Below are positions 52,265 to 59,343 of a stretch of 64,000 bases of DNA, piece after piece. Where the stretch lies: assembly GCF_000812875.1 (NCBI RefSeq), contig NZ_JSYK01000002.1, positions 372,001 to 436,000 on the forward strand, read 5' to 3'. The notes under the pieces are model-generated. The model made no database searches. It worked only from the letters and a program-made list of their open reading frames with translations, and was not told where the DNA came from. Origin of the DNA: Kaistella solincola (GTDB taxonomy: Bacteria; Bacteroidota; Bacteroidia; Flavobacteriales; Weeksellaceae). The translations under genes and the position numbers were made by a program. Every line of letters begins with the position of its first letter. Position 1 is the stretch's first letter.

Positions 52265-52564
52265 TCAGGAGTATTGTTTAAGCAAATTGGTGAGTGTATT
52301 CACATCGTGCACGCCGCTTTCTTTCCAGAGCAACTGTCCATTTTTGAAAACCGCTAAAGTCGGAACACCGCGCACACCGTACTGTGACGCAATTGCTGGA
52401 TGCTGGTCCACATCTATTTTTACGATTCTGGCATCGTTGCCGATATTTTCTTTCACCGTCGTAAGAACCGACGACTGTACTTTACACGGTCCGCACCAGG
52501 TCGCGAAAAAATCAATAAGCACCGGGCGTTCAGAATTGATGAGTTCTTGAAATTTCTGTGACAT
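52265..52564 (-). CDS. trxA: Thioredoxin
   Basis: A 99-residue thioredoxin with active site W-C24-G-P-C27, cis-proline region RGVPTLAVFKNG and normal core length. As the last gene of the rhodanese/persulfide cluster it may reduce persulfide or disulfide products there, or simply be a general thioredoxin. Confidence 0.92.
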   Translation of the reverse strand: MSQKFQELINSERPVLIDFFATWCGPCKVQSSVLTTVKENIGNDARIVKIDVDQHPAIASQYGVRGVPTLAVFKNGQLLWKESGVHDVNTLTNLLKQYS

Positions 52565-52609
52565 AATTTTAAGTTTTTTTTGGTCAAAAAAGGAAATAAA
52601 AATTACCCT

Positions 52610-52810
52610 TTATTTCACCTCTTTTTTTGAAGGAATCTCGCAGGCTCCGCCGGCGCATCCTAATTTAAATAGTGCCATTACAGCAAAATACAATCCAAAA
52701 GGCATCATCCACCAAACTCTGTCATTTACTGCAATCAGGACAAAAAATATCCCGGAGCAGAAATAAAGCACCCTGCTCAGTGACCAGTTTTTAAAAATAT
52801 TTTTGTCCAT
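52610..52810 (-). CDS. Small membrane protein with C-x4-C, unknown
   Basis: A 66-residue protein with two hydrophobic segments (VLYFCSGIFFVLIAV and MMPFGLYFAVMALF) joined by NDRVWW, a layout like the YgaP membrane domain that accompanies rhodaneses. At the end of the second helix is G-C-A-G-G-A-C, a C-x4-C pair that could bind sulfur or a metal. It lies in the persulfide cluster, with 85 bases to the upstream gene. Confidence 0.72.
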   Translation of the reverse strand: MDKNIFKNWSLSRVLYFCSGIFFVLIAVNDRVWWMMPFGLYFAVMALFKLGCAGGACEIPSKKEVK

Positions 52811-52895
52811 TTTAAATTAAAAATTTAATATTAAAATCATTGAAAAATCCGTAAAATTTGCCCGAAAAGCGGCTAAAAAATTTATTTAAAAAATA

Positions 52896-53111
52896 TCAGG
52901 CTTTGATGTCCTTTTTTTTCGATTTTTCAAAAGTTGAAAACATCAGATAACCCATCATCATTCCGTATGCCGTGGAATTAAATGGTTTTGAAGTTATCGC
53001 GCAAGTGCCCGTGTTGCAACCAATAAAATGGTAATAGGCGAAACCTAAAATTCCACCCACCAAAACACCAACAATACTTAGTTTATATTTATTAAAAAAC
53101 TCCATCATCAT
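52896..53111 (-). CDS. Small membrane protein, DUF6132-like, C-x4-C
   Basis: A 71-residue protein with a helix VVGVLVGGILGFAYYHFI-type segment, then G-C-N-T-G-T-C-A-I (C-x4-C), and a second helix ending in a Lys-rich tail. I recall this as the DUF6132 type found beside rhodanese genes in Bacteroidota. It overlaps the cupin gene by one base, so the two are translated together. Confidence 0.72.
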   Translation of the reverse strand: MMMEFFNKYKLSIVGVLVGGILGFAYYHFIGCNTGTCAITSKPFNSTAYGMMMGYLMFSTFEKSKKKDIKA

Positions 53112-53410
53112 TACAATTCCTGCGCTACGGTAAATAAATTTTCCGCGGAAAGTCCGGTAACTTCGTGTTCTACACCAACCGGAATTTCGTACACATCAAA
53201 CTGGCGAAAATGAAACTGCTCATTTTCCATCACGAAATTTATTTCACCTTTTAATACCACCAAAGTTGAAGGGACCGGCGCTGTATGCTTTTTTAAAACG
53301 CCGTTTTTACCTAAAGCAACCGCAAAATATTTCAGTTTGTCGGTCTTTTTTATCGAAAAAACATTTGCTTTTTCGCTGCTGTAAGTGATATTTTCTGATA
53401 TATTCGTCAT
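53111..53410 (-). CDS. Cupin-fold protein
   Basis: A 99-residue single-domain cupin: HTAPVPSTLVVLKGEINFVM and FRQFDVYEIPVGVEHEVTGL keep the cupin strands, with His residues at the two usual metal positions only partly conserved. Its start overlaps the end of the rhodanese gene by 4 bases. A sensing or sulfur-linked role in the cluster is possible but not shown. Confidence 0.82.
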   Translation of the reverse strand: MTNISENITYSSEKANVFSIKKTDKLKYFAVALGKNGVLKKHTAPVPSTLVVLKGEINFVMENEQFHFRQFDVYEIPVGVEHEVTGLSAENLFTVAQEL

Positions 53411-53781
53411 TTCTTTTCGTTTTTAATGGCTTCTACGTTGTTTAATGTTTTCGCGTTGTACACGGTGTTCACGCCGTTTTTTTTCAAAATTTCTACAGCT
53501 TCACCGGCTTGTCTCCCGGAATTGCAAAAAACCACCACGTTTTTACCTTTCAGCAAACCGAGGTTGTTTTGAAGTTCCGCCAGAGGAATATTTATTGCGC
53601 CCTCAGCGCTTTTCTTCTCGAACTGTTCCGGAACTCTTACATCTACCAAAACGGTTTCGGAGTCCAAAACCATTGGTTTAATTTCAGTTCTGTCGGCATT
53701 TGACACTACTGCTTTTTGAGTTTGACATGATGCCACAAATGCGGATATCATCATCAATAACACTAACTTTTTCATCTTCAT
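53407..53781 (-). CDS. Rhodanese-domain lipoprotein
   Basis: A 124-residue exported lipoprotein with lipobox cysteine C19 (AFVASC) and one rhodanese domain; the active cysteine is C86 in VVVFCNSGRQAG. It would move sulfane sulfur in the periplasm. The start overlaps the last base of the persulfide dioxygenase-like gene (53781). Confidence 0.9.
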   Translation of the reverse strand: MKMKKLVLLMMISAFVASCQTQKAVVSNADRTEIKPMVLDSETVLVDVRVPEQFEKKSAEGAINIPLAELQNNLGLLKGKNVVVFCNSGRQAGEAVEILKKNGVNTVYNAKTLNNVEAIKNEKK

Positions 53782-55187
53782 TAAATTTTAGATTGGCAGA
53801 CAAAATTGCTTTTCGGAACTTTGGTTTCTTTAATCTTGGAAAAACCACCTTCAATCTCGGTAAAATTGCGGATTCCGCGGGAATTTAAAATACTAGCGGC
53901 AATCATGCTGCGGTATCCTCCCGCGCAGTGAACGTAAAAATGTTCATTTGGATTAATGGTAAGCGCCCAGTCATTAATTTCAACCAATGGTTTGCTGAAG
54001 GCTTCATTTACATGTTCCGCTTCATATTCCGATGGTTTTCTGACGTCTAAGACGACCGATTTTTCCGAAAATTCTTCTGCAAAAGTTTCTGCTGAAATCC
54101 TTTTAACCTTGTCTATTTCTTTCCCGGATTTCTCCCAGGATTCAAAACCACCTTGCAGATAACCAATTACATGATCAAAACCTACCCGCGCTAATCTGGT
54201 GATTGATTCTTCTTCGGCACCAACTTCGGTAACCAAAAGAATTGGCTGCGCAACATCAACGATCATGGCACCAACCCACGGCGCAAAATCGCCTTTTAAA
54301 CCGATATTTATTGAGTTTGGCACATAACCTTTGTGGAAGTGTGCAGCACTTCTTGTATCCAAAATTAGAGCTCCGGAATCTTCAGCAACATTCTCAAATT
54401 CTTCCGGTGAAAGCGGCTGTTTTCCTTTTTCTAAAATGGAATCGAAATCTTCGTAACCACCTTTATTCATGGCGACATTCATCCCGAAATATTTCGGTGG
54501 CGGCGCCAAACCGTCTAAAACTTCGGCAATAAAAGCTTCTTTATTTGGCTGATTAAGCGCGTAATTTGTTTTCTTCTGATTTCCCAGCGTGTCTACAGTT
54601 TCTTTTTGCATGTTTTTTCCGCATGCAGAACCCGCACCATGCGCCGGATACACCAAAATATCGTCCGGAAGCGGAATAATTTTTTGCTGCAGACTTTCGT
54701 ATAAAATTCCGGCTAAATCTTCCTGCGTGATGCTGCCGGCTTTTTGCGCCAGATCCGGTCTGCCGACGTCGCCCAAAAACAACGTGTCTCCACTGAAAAT
54801 TGCATTTTCCTTTTCATTTTCATCGATGAGCAGAAAAGTGGAACTTTCCATGGTGTGACCCGGAGTGTGCAAAACTTTAATTTTCACCTTTCCAACTTCA
54901 AAAATCTGTCCGTCGGTTGCAATTATCGCCTCGAAATGCGGTGTTGCTGTCGGTCCATAAATAATTGGAGCGCCTGTTTTCCTTGAAAGATCCACGTGAC
55001 CGGAGACAAAATCTGCATGAAAATGCGTCTCAAAAATATATTTCAATTTTACCTCATCTTTTTCCAAACGGTCCAGATAAGGTTTCGTTTCGCGCAGCGG
55101 ATCAATGATCACCGCCTCTTTTTCGGAAACGATATAATATGCGCCCTGCGCCAGACAGCCTGTATAAATTTGTTCTACCTTCATCAT
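53781..55187 (-). CDS. Persulfide dioxygenase-rhodanese fusion (CstB-like)
   Basis: A 468-residue protein: metallo-beta-lactamase domain (1-240) with H55-F-H57-A-D59 and H64, VLHTPGHTMES and FSGDTLFLGDVGRPDL, the Fe(II)-binding persulfide dioxygenase type. A first rhodanese-like domain (about 255-350) has no cysteine at its loop (LLVTEVGAEEE), and a second (about 365-455) has the active C421 in YVHCAGGYRS. This three-part build is that of CstB, which oxidises low-molecular-weight persulfides to thiosulfate. A second ATG follows at once (55184). Confidence 0.93.
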   Translation of the reverse strand: MMKVEQIYTGCLAQGAYYIVSEKEAVIIDPLRETKPYLDRLEKDEVKLKYIFETHFHADFVSGHVDLSRKTGAPIIYGPTATPHFEAIIATDGQIFEVGKVKIKVLHTPGHTMESSTFLLIDENEKENAIFSGDTLFLGDVGRPDLAQKAGSITQEDLAGILYESLQQKIIPLPDDILVYPAHGAGSACGKNMQKETVDTLGNQKKTNYALNQPNKEAFIAEVLDGLAPPPKYFGMNVAMNKGGYEDFDSILEKGKQPLSPEEFENVAEDSGALILDTRSAAHFHKGYVPNSINIGLKGDFAPWVGAMIVDVAQPILLVTEVGAEEESITRLARVGFDHVIGYLQGGFESWEKSGKEIDKVKRISAETFAEEFSEKSVVLDVRKPSEYEAEHVNEAFSKPLVEINDWALTINPNEHFYVHCAGGYRSMIAASILNSRGIRNFTEIEGGFSKIKETKVPKSNFVCQSKI

Positions 55188-55779: not shown

Positions 55780-57768
55780 CTAAAGACTGAAGTTTAAATT
55801 CAAATAAAAATTTCGTCCGGGGCGCGGCAAATGGTTCCAGTCCGCGTAAGAAGTGTAATATCGGTTGAATAAATTTTCAACACCGGCTTTCGCAAATAAT
55901 TTTGTTTTTCCAAAGTTGAAATTGTAGCCCGCGTTTAGATTTACAATAAAATACGCGGGCGTTTCATTTTCGCCATATTTTGCAGCAAAGTTTCTGTGTT
56001 TTGAATTTCCGAAAACGGAAACTTCGGAAGAAAATCTATTTCGCTCAAACCGCAGCGAACTCTGATAGCTGAGCGGACTCATAAACGGCAGATTTTCACC
56101 TTCGCTGTCTTTTCCACGCAGATAAACGATTTGCGAATTCCAATTTATAAGTTCCGAAAGCTGAAAATCCGCATTTAAGCTGATATTAAAAATGTCGGCA
56201 TTTTCCAGAGCGGAATATTTTTTTACACCGCGCGCGCCGATCGTCATCGGAACCAGACCTTGCACAATATTTCCGACGATATAATTGGAGATTTTGAAAT
56301 AAGATGACGCCAGTTTAAGTTTATAATTTTTCTGTTTTACACCTAAAAAGGCGTTAGCTTCGAGCGAAGATTCATTTCTCAAACTTGGGTTGCCAATATA
56401 ATCGTATTTCTCGAAACTGTTAAAAAGATAGAAACCGTAACCTTCGGAAACAGACGGCGCGCGGTCGCCATAACCCAAGCCAAAACCGGCTTCAAAGCCA
56501 TTTTTTTCGAAATTGTAATTTGCAGCTAAACTTTTTAGAAAGCGGGTTTTTTCGGCATTCATTTCGGGATAAAAAATCTGCAGGCTGCTTAATCCAAAAT
56601 CGCTTTCGACTTTGTTTTGATGCAATGTCGCAGATGCCGAAATTTTTAGGTTTGAATTTTCACTGACTTTAAATTTATCTTCCAGAAAAACCGCTTGCGA
56701 AAGTGTTCTCACCTCCGGCCAGGTCAGCATAAACATCAGTCTTTCGCTTTTGTCATTTGGATACATCGTCATTTCCGCGCGTGATTTATTGTAATATCCG
56801 GTACCGTTTAACAGAAAATTGTGCTGTTTAGCAGCGAATTTTAGTTGCGAATAATAACCAACGGTGGTGCTCCAGCCCGGCATATCCATGTGAATTTGCG
56901 TCTCCGGTCTTTTTGTATCGTCCATGCGGTGGGTGACGGTATTGAAATAAATCTTTGTTTCCCAACTTTTCAGAAAATCGCTTTGCGGTAAAACCTGGAA
57001 TTTCAACGAAGTAATGAGCGCTTCCGCAAGTGAAACATCCATTGGCAACGCCGGGTAACCGACATCGGTTGCTTTGTCATAAATTATTGAAGCTTCAAGC
57101 AGCTTATTTTCTGCTATTTTTGCGCCTGAAATGGCAGATATATTCATTTTTTTAAACTGCGAGTATGGAATTTCCTGGTTATTTCCGGCTTTATAATTTT
57201 CAGCATCGCGCAACATGAAATTGACATCGCTGTAAAATTTCGCGGATTTATATTTCACTCCGGTACCAAAAATTTTCTGAGAATTTACCGTTTCAAAACC
57301 GGTATTCAGGTTGAAATTCCACTGCTCTTTACCGAATACCGATTTATTTCTTTTCAGGTCAATCGCGCCGCCGATGGTGTTTCCGTGGCACGCACCGCCC
57401 TGCCCCGAACTGATTTCAGCTTCCTGCAAATTCGAAATTTCCACATAAGACGTGATTGGATCCATTTTGTCGGTACACGCACCGAAAATCCGCATTCCAT
57501 CGATGGTTACCAAAGTTCTTTCTGTGGGCAAACCGTTAATCAGCGGTTCCCAGGCATACGCGCCGCGTTTTATCATATCTACTTTCGCCGATTTCTGCAA
57601 ATATTCATCAATAGAACCCAAAGGTTTATTTTCTTTAGCGGAAAGTTTCGCAGTGCTAATAACAATTACTTCCTGAATGTGGTGAATATTGCCGGAATCC
57701 AGCTGCAGCTGCGCATTTATATTTAAAGAAAAAAGGGCAAAACAGGGCAAAAAAATTAAATTTTTCAT
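55780..57768 (-). CDS. TonB-dependent copper receptor (OprC/NosA-like)
   Basis: A complete 662-residue receptor with signal peptide (MKNLIFLPCFALFSLNINA) and plug (about 30-150). The plug carries G-A-C98-T-D-K-M102-D-P-I-T-S-Y; in the barrel T-H280-R-M282-D-D follows. This is the CxxxM plus HxM pair that forms the copper site of OprC, with almost the same spacing. GGACHGNTIGG adds a second Cys-His. The final strand is PGRNFYLNLNFSL. It follows a Met/His-rich lipoprotein gene by 120 bases, so import of copper ions is the best call; the ligand has not been tested. Confidence 0.88.
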   Translation of the reverse strand: MKNLIFLPCFALFSLNINAQLQLDSGNIHHIQEVIVISTAKLSAKENKPLGSIDEYLQKSAKVDMIKRGAYAWEPLINGLPTERTLVTIDGMRIFGACTDKMDPITSYVEISNLQEAEISSGQGGACHGNTIGGAIDLKRNKSVFGKEQWNFNLNTGFETVNSQKIFGTGVKYKSAKFYSDVNFMLRDAENYKAGNNQEIPYSQFKKMNISAISGAKIAENKLLEASIIYDKATDVGYPALPMDVSLAEALITSLKFQVLPQSDFLKSWETKIYFNTVTHRMDDTKRPETQIHMDMPGWSTTVGYYSQLKFAAKQHNFLLNGTGYYNKSRAEMTMYPNDKSERLMFMLTWPEVRTLSQAVFLEDKFKVSENSNLKISASATLHQNKVESDFGLSSLQIFYPEMNAEKTRFLKSLAANYNFEKNGFEAGFGLGYGDRAPSVSEGYGFYLFNSFEKYDYIGNPSLRNESSLEANAFLGVKQKNYKLKLASSYFKISNYIVGNIVQGLVPMTIGARGVKKYSALENADIFNISLNADFQLSELINWNSQIVYLRGKDSEGENLPFMSPLSYQSSLRFERNRFSSEVSVFGNSKHRNFAAKYGENETPAYFIVNLNAGYNFNFGKTKLFAKAGVENLFNRYYTSYADWNHLPRPGRNFYLNLNFSL

Positions 57769-57888: not shown

Positions 57889-58749
57889 TTAGAAATCAAG
57901 TTCAAAAAATAGAGAGCTCGCAGGATTAGCGTCTGTCACATCTTCACCTTTTAGCACTACTCCACTTTGATTCAGCAACTGTAAATTAATTTTCCAGTAA
58001 CCGGTCATTGTTAAAGATATTTTTCCTTTGTAAAGTCCGCCGGCGGCTGATTGTGTTGCTGCGACATTGTTCGGTGAACTGTGATTTCCCATTCCCGGCA
58101 TGCGCGGATCGAGTTTCACGCTGAGACCTTCTGCCACAGGATAACTCATCATGTCCTGCATTTTCCAGACACCGATTGTCACGTCATTTGTCGCCACTTT
58201 TGGTGAAATTGGCTCAACGTAAGCCACGATATATTTCACATTATCACTTCCAACAATTACATTCACTGTTTTTTTGGTTGAAGCTGGAACAGACAAATTT
58301 CCAGTTGCAGAAAAATCTGCAGTTCCAATCGAATAGTCGATTTTTAAATTCCAGAATTCCATATTATTTTCCGGCATTTGAAAAACCATATAACCGCCAT
58401 AAATTGTCGCGTCTTTCAATGTATTCTGCAATTCAGATTTCGGACAAGAATGTGTCATATTCATCATGTTCATCAGCGGTGTCCATTTTACATTCGCCGG
58501 TGTTTCGTACTGATTAGTTGCTTTGTTTTTAAAGCGAAGTTTCAAATCATTATAGCCCAATTGCGTGGTTCCGGTTTTGGAATAGAGTTCAATAATATGT
58601 GTATCGTTGGTGATTTCTTTGATTTTAAGAAAGCCGTTGAGCTCGGTGTTTGTGGTTGGAATTATTTCATCGGAATCTGAAGTCCGACACGAGAGAACAA
58701 GAAAAGCCAATGCCAGAAAGGCAAAAATATTTTTAAAGGAAAAATTCAT
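57889..58749 (-). CDS. YtkA-like Met/His-rich lipoprotein, probable copper binder
   Basis: A 286-residue lipoprotein with lipobox C21 (AFLVLSC). The C-terminal domain (about 195-285) resembles the YtkA/FixH-type fold: SVKLDPRMPGMGNHSSPNN, GGLYKGKISLTMTGYWKINL. Other soft-metal clusters are MNMMNMTHSCP near residue 94 and WKMQDMMSYPVAEG. With the CxxxM receptor downstream it probably captures or delivers copper at the outer surface or periplasm. The first ~90 residues are Thr/Asn-rich. Confidence 0.82.
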   Translation of the reverse strand: MNFSFKNIFAFLALAFLVLSCRTSDSDEIIPTTNTELNGFLKIKEITNDTHIIELYSKTGTTQLGYNDLKLRFKNKATNQYETPANVKWTPLMNMMNMTHSCPKSELQNTLKDATIYGGYMVFQMPENNMEFWNLKIDYSIGTADFSATGNLSVPASTKKTVNVIVGSDNVKYIVAYVEPISPKVATNDVTIGVWKMQDMMSYPVAEGLSVKLDPRMPGMGNHSSPNNVAATQSAAGGLYKGKISLTMTGYWKINLQLLNQSGVVLKGEDVTDANPASSLFFELDF

Positions 58750-58847: not shown

Positions 58848-59210
58848 TTATATTTGCGGCGGATGCGGCAATATTCCCAGAATAATTTCCGGGAGAAAAC
58901 CGTCGTGGTAAGAGAAGATGGAAATTATTGTCACAAAGCGCGGCTCTTTAGCAATAGAAAAATAAGCCACTTTAGCCGGTAAAATATTGAACTCAAAAGA
59001 GTATTTCACCAAACTGAAAAAATTAGCCGTTTTTTCGCCATTTTTTTTCATTTGACATTTTCCGTGGCAATCCATTTCCGGCTTGGCTTTATTGACGCAA
59101 TAAATTTCATAAAAATCCCGGTTGATTTTATAGTCCAGCATAAACAAACCATCGCCGAAACTTGCGCCGAAAATAATGATTGAAAGAAGTAAGCTTATTG
59201 CCGGTTTCAT
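58848..59210 (-). CDS. Small Cys-rich exported protein of the copper operon
   Basis: A 120-residue protein with an N-terminal signal or anchor helix (AISLLLSIIIFGASFGDGLF), then INRDFYEIYCVNKAKPEMDC and H-G-K-C, a C-x9-C-x3-C pattern seen in small Bacteroidota proteins beside TonB receptors. The C-terminal half is hydrophobic and aromatic (FFSLVKYSFEFNILP) and ends GILPHPPQI. Role unknown; metal binding is a guess from the cysteines and the context. First gene of the operon. Confidence 0.78.
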   Translation of the reverse strand: MKPAISLLLSIIIFGASFGDGLFMLDYKINRDFYEIYCVNKAKPEMDCHGKCQMKKNGEKTANFFSLVKYSFEFNILPAKVAYFSIAKEPRFVTIISIFSYHDGFLPEIILGILPHPPQI

Positions 59211-59225: not shown

Positions 59226-59343
59226 AGACTAAATGCTCTGAATTAAAAAATGACTTTCATCAGCACTCTTACTCCTAGTTTTGGTAACTGACCGAATTAA
59301 CTCTGTAATATTTTTTATCTTTAACAATTGAAAAATAAAAAAA

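Follow-up and report, generated by a model that had tools for sequence, protein, structure and literature searches.

The outer membrane receptor OprC of Pseudomonas aeruginosa (6fok, 6z8q) binds copper through Cys143, Met147, His323 and Met325 (PMC8610252). NosA of Pseudomonas stutzeri, a proteobacterial orthologue about 60% identical to OprC, was proposed to serve the nitrous oxide reductase NosZ, and the idea of an OprC-type receptor working for NosZ was already given with it (PMC8610252). CrtA (BfrG) also imports copper in a TonB-dependent manner; its substrate is chelated copper, it has no conserved Cys or Met, and it carries a conserved His pair and falls in a separate sequence cluster (PMC12914433). 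For the Bacteroidota, the passages on the Bizionia argentinensis receptor G2EC70 (21.8% identity to OprC) in a 2024 paper already report a CxxxM-HxM motif; these passages discuss neither a lipoprotein partner nor an association with nosZ, and a table of the same paper places a P-type ATPase, CcoG and NosL in the G2EC70 neighborhood (PMC11213822). The present analysis concerns a TonB-dependent receptor gene and its operon in Kaistella solincola (Weeksellaceae), located in a stretch of 64,000 nucleotides (contig NZ_JSYK01000002.1, positions 372,001 to 436,000; hereafter the window, to which coordinates refer unless another locus is named). We consider it likely that the receptor is an OprC/NosA-like importer of ionic copper of the Bacteroidota, acting with a lipoprotein partner and mainly for the metallation of clade-II NosZ.

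The window receptor has the fold of OprC, the same aligned CxxxM-HxM positions and methionines that match the OprC methionine track, and structural alignment of the two gives about 19-20% identity; unlike OprC, it is accompanied by a fixed lipoprotein partner and by a small protein with a CxGKC motif. With NosA it shares the OprC-type site and the link to nitrous oxide reductase, but it is distant from that protein, and its tie is to the NosZ of Bacteroidota, which is Sec-dependent and of clade II. Its proposed role has TonB-dependent copper import in common with CrtA, from which it is set apart by invariant Cys and Met ligands. A search of the open-access literature returned no report of a CrdA-like lipoprotein partner, of the small CxGKC protein or of a tie to clade-II nosZ in Bacteroidota, and no paper tying TonB receptors to Bacteroidota nos clusters.

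An OprC-like receptor and its predicted copper site

The receptor gene (55780..57768, minus strand; 662 amino acids) was characterized from its open reading frame, by phmmer, and by structure matching of an AlphaFold2 model. The Plug domain was its sole match in a Pfam scan, and phmmer against the PDB, with the receptor as query, returned OprC entries exclusively (2.8e-13). A first-pass annotation, made from the letters of the window, had suggested that a predicted structure be laid on OprC, and the folds were found to agree: in the model (mean predicted local distance difference test score, pLDDT, 82; predicted template modelling score 0.83), Foldseek placed OprC chains at ranks 1-28, and VIA aligned 595 residues of OprC at 2.6 A with a Z of 36.4, only a little above the zinc receptor ZnuD (4rdt; Z 35.3). 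The nearest match to the receptor was from Kaistella treverensis (Weeksellaceae), and a search of a plasmid collection produced remote receptors and nothing closer.

The plug half of the predicted copper site is C98-T-D-K-M102 (57463..57477, minus strand) and the barrel half is H280-R-M282 (56923..56931, minus strand), both located from the codons and by alignment to OprC. The two motifs, with DPITSY after the first and an aspartate after the second, read in the 662-residue translation exactly as first annotated, and the spacing was likewise within two residues of that in OprC (182 between C98 and H280; 180 between C143 and H323). In the phmmer alignment to 6fok, CTDKM lies over CPNRM and HRMDD over HIMDN, and the ligands pair one to one. 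Conservation was followed in a close set of 81 sequences (80 fetched close homologues and the window receptor) and in a wide set of 79 receptor homologues (24-100% identity) drawn from 197 family and 395 phylum genomes. C98, M102, H280 and M282 were invariant in both (81/81 and 79/79), down to 24% identity. A CxxxM/HxM pair at a distance of 170-195 residues arose in 10 of 20,000 shuffles of the receptor sequence, and none of the genome's 15 remaining TonB receptors has CxxxM or HxM, and they contain almost no cysteine; on the shuffle count and these motif-free receptors, the site is not a chance motif. The receptor is predicted to bind copper at these four residues and to transport it.

A conserved methionine track, as judged by alignment, would lead to the predicted site. 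M243 (57040..57042, minus strand) aligns with OprC M286, silver site 2 of the track, and M294-D-M296 (56881..56889, minus strand) with the MMPMPM stretch of OprC (M339/M341/M343); in OprC crystals, M286 and the M339-M343 stretch bear silver (PMC8610252). The segment from M333 to M347 (56728..56772, minus strand) is probably a further part of the track, on conservation in the 81 homologues, in which M92, M243, M294, M296, M333, M335, M345, M347 and M508 are further invariant methionines. The motif GGACHGNTIGG, for which a second metal site had been suggested, is present, and its C127 and H128 (57385..57390, minus strand; located from the codons and of uncertain role) are common in the nos-linked clade; neither residue is invariant, C127 being kept in 64/81 close and 26/79 wide sequences and H128 in 58/81 and 54/79. 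By this pattern of conservation the pair lies outside the core copper site, and it may tune the nos-linked clade.

Partner genes and the upstream palindrome

The receptor gene comes third in a conserved operon transcribed from one strand, after those for the small CxGKC protein and, next, the YtkA/CrdA-like lipoprotein. The Met/His-rich lipoprotein (57889..58749, minus strand; 286 amino acids, a two-domain beta protein by Pfam, model and profile) is encoded in 77/80 fetched loci, adjoining the receptor in nearly all, and in 16/16 further loci with receptors of 42-58% identity. Its match to the YtkA-like family PF13115 is weak but above threshold (27.1 bits; cut-off 25.9), and NCBIfam gave nothing useful for it. 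Thirteen Met, His and Cys residues are almost invariant, including those of DPRMPxMxNHxSPNN. In the model (pLDDT 88), residues 41-154 superpose on the silver-bound form of CrdA, a copper protein of Helicobacter pylori (Z 13.5, 2.2 A, 103 residues); Foldseek returned Ig-like domains exclusively, with low template modelling scores, and CrdA surfaced with a second aligner. The second domain is matched to CrdA by the family profile (E 0.0024), with MPxM and M-x-G-x-W in common. Because the first domain superposes on CrdA and the second matches it by profile, the lipoprotein is most likely a tandem copper-binding protein. The likeness to CrdA and to YtkA/CtaK is one of domains; the lipoprotein differs from these in having two domains in tandem, beside a TonB receptor.

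Surface export signals of Bacteroidota lipoproteins are of the type SDDDD or SDDFE (PMC5080379), and most homologues of the lipoprotein read CSSDDD or similar from the lipid cysteine onward. Surface exposure is only a proposal for the window protein, since its own sequence at this position, CRTSDSDE, is less typical.

The first gene encodes a small membrane-anchored or exported protein (58848..59210, minus strand; 120 amino acids), defined by its open reading frame and conservation, which precedes the lipoprotein gene in about 70 of the 80 loci. C38, C48-x-G-K-C52 and a C-terminal PP are kept in 71 sequences, and no family was found for it in Pfam or NCBIfam. The small protein accompanies both types of receptor described below and is a candidate copper or thiol protein of the envelope.

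A pattern search located a TGA-N6-TCA palindrome of Crp/Fnr type upstream of the operon (59251..59262), about 40 bases ahead of the start codon of the small gene. The same pattern precedes the small gene in 62/70 loci, with 3.9 expected from shuffles, while control spacers of 4, 5, 7 and 8 were found in 1-3 loci each, at or below the expected 4. A copy also precedes the nos operon of the genome, in which ATGA-N6-TCAT occurs 45 times and the reversed control 14 times. The strict FNR box TTGAN-N4-NTCAA was found upstream of the operon in 0/70 loci. Given the enrichment, the spacer specificity and the copy at the nos operon, the operon is probably controlled by a regulator of the Crp/Fnr type.

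Two further observations concern the surroundings of the operon. Beside it in the window (52265..55187) are genes for a metallo-beta-lactamase/rhodanese fusion, a rhodanese-like lipoprotein, a cupin-like protein, a DUF6132 protein and a thioredoxin, a cluster likely to handle persulfide or sulfur and found near the operon in Weeksellaceae relatives too. The receptor operon, in its Flavobacterium type, is also borne by a contig titled as a Bifidobacterium breve metagenome-assembled genome (L128), which is almost certainly mis-binned.

Association with clade-II nosZ

The genome of the window carries clade-II nosZ (TIGR04246, 933 bits) with nosL, nosD, nosF, nosY and a gene of Crp/Fnr type, nosF and nosY being named by resemblance alone. 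In Flavobacterium the operon often adjoins nosZ, nosD, nosF, nosY and nor-type genes, and a nos gene was present in the available flanking DNA, in many cases short, of 31/80 loci. In the 197 family genomes, 32/34 receptor orthologues of at least 56% identity were in nosZ-positive genomes (Fisher 1e-16, ancestry ignored), as were 16/24 receptors of a second, more OprC-like type (about 25% identity). The link was weaker in the 395 phylum genomes (27/48 vs 101/347, p 4e-4, again with ancestry ignored). Within the window genus, one of the two OprC-type receptors was found in 31/31 nosZ-positive genomes and in 1/5 nosZ-negative ones. On a HerA marker tree of the genus, receptor and nosZ were lost jointly two separate times; this tree is a rough guide only, because HerA itself adjoins the operon. 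The operon tracks clade-II nosZ in Flavobacteriales.

The second type of receptor (OprC match 1.4e-32; 216 bits on TIGR01778) takes the place of the first in some relatives. In one (G048), the position of lipoprotein and receptor, behind the same small gene and beside HerA, is occupied by a receptor nearer to OprC that has the motifs ACPSRMDP and HSMG; in another (G026), a second-type receptor and the same kind of small gene are transcribed divergently from the nosZ operon, and palindromes lie between. The swap of two CxxxM-HxM receptors at one place supports a shared job. Second OprC-type receptors in the same genus (L206:2186-4210 and L208:2426-4456), again nearer to OprC and with ACPSRMDP and HSMG, replace or parallel the first, follow a small CxGKC gene of like kind and adjoin nosZ in some genomes. 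A multi-pass membrane protein of about 400 amino acids (MRYKI...HSHFAFxGW; L170:14491-15702 and L118:4089-5327), for which NCBIfam gave no match, recurs in nos clusters next to their Crp/Fnr gene.

Genes resembling those for MbnP and MbnH lie 3' of the receptor at two loci with receptors of about 45% identity (L048 and L052), and family searches at the second confirmed MbnP, an MbnH-like di-heme protein and SCO1. The stretch L052:2028-9011 is a probable copper operon for oxidases. As MbnP, MbnH and SCO1 are copper genes, a relation to copper holds for the whole receptor family, and a tie to nosZ for its close clade.

Proposed copper route and competing explanations

The annotation of the gene as a copper importer of a Bacteroidota is backed by the PDB and fold matches, the invariant site, the methionine track, the lipoprotein partner and the link to nosZ. 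Since the receptor gene travels with nosZ and with a gene for a copper-type lipoprotein, the receptor probably supplies copper to NosZ. In the proposed route, low oxygen would switch the operon on, probably through the Crp/Fnr-type regulator. The Met/His-rich lipoprotein, at the outer membrane or close to it, would probably bind Cu(I), and the small CxGKC protein would act together with it and the receptor. Surface methionines would pass copper inward to the buried site, where two plug residues (Cys98 and Met102) and two barrel residues (His280 and Met282) would hold it until the pull of TonB on the plug released it to the periplasm; the main client in the clade would probably be clade-II NosZ. 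A narrower form of this proposal, which we advance tentatively and with a little less than even confidence, is a two-part capture system for ionic copper at the outer membrane, in which a surface CrdA-like lipoprotein hands Cu(I) to the OprC-type receptor under Crp/Fnr-type control and so feeds clade-II NosZ. Such a system would have the lipoprotein-and-receptor build of BtuG/BtuB and SusD/SusC, here with ionic copper as cargo.

Several results weigh against this interpretation. On TIGR01778, the NCBI model for copper receptors, the receptor fell far short with 99.3 bits (curated cut-off 472.45), and for this reason it is not, by sequence, a member of that equivalog; several TonB models of NCBIfam matched it, each below cut-off, and the heme receptor model TIGR01785 scored slightly higher (103.9 bits). 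In the window genome nosZ lies 375 kb from the receptor operon, and 11 nosZ-positive family genomes had no receptor match at 1e-30. The Fisher and other p values of the nosZ link take no account of ancestry. Among the family genomes, paralogues of 40-56% identity had no link to nosZ (5/13); because of these, and because some stand with MbnP, MbnH and SCO1, copper delivery by the receptor family is not necessarily for NosZ alone.

These last paralogues also speak for a general copper importer that would serve mainly heme-copper oxidases (cbb3 or CuA), the nosZ link then reflecting a shared low-oxygen lifestyle. YtkA domains of Bacillus work in CuA assembly (PMC13344008) and many non-denitrifiers have OprC (PMC8610252), in keeping with such a role. 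Oxidases, however, are widespread in these aerobes, and yet the close orthologues follow nosZ in 32/34 cases and, within the genus, disappeared together with it; we regard the oxidase explanation as rather unlikely. Less probable still is a receptor that takes up copper as a chelate or bound to a protein, rather than as bare ions, and whose site receives the metal only once the carrier has let it go: Bordetella CrtA takes in chelated copper (PMC12914433) and the lipoprotein partner could present copper, but CrtA is reported without conserved Cys and Met, whereas all ligands of the OprC ionic site, and the methionine track, are invariant in the present receptors. That the copper motif is a coincidence in a heme or siderophore receptor was set aside as very improbable. 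The small lead of TIGR01785 over TIGR01778 could be cited for it, but both scores are far below their cut-offs, the PDB yields OprC alone by sequence, the ligands never vary, the lipoprotein partner is of copper type and the 15 other receptors are motif-free.

The importer of ionic copper working mainly for clade-II NosZ is therefore the explanation that we retain. The greenhouse gas nitrous oxide (N2O) has its main known biological sink in nitrous oxide reductase, an enzyme that needs many copper atoms, and many clade-II N2O reducers are Bacteroidota. No description of how copper passes the outer membrane in clade-II N2O reducers was found in the open-access literature, and a lipoprotein partner is not known for OprC. 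The gene set described here offers a specific and testable copper route, with named residues, for the clade-II N2O reducers.
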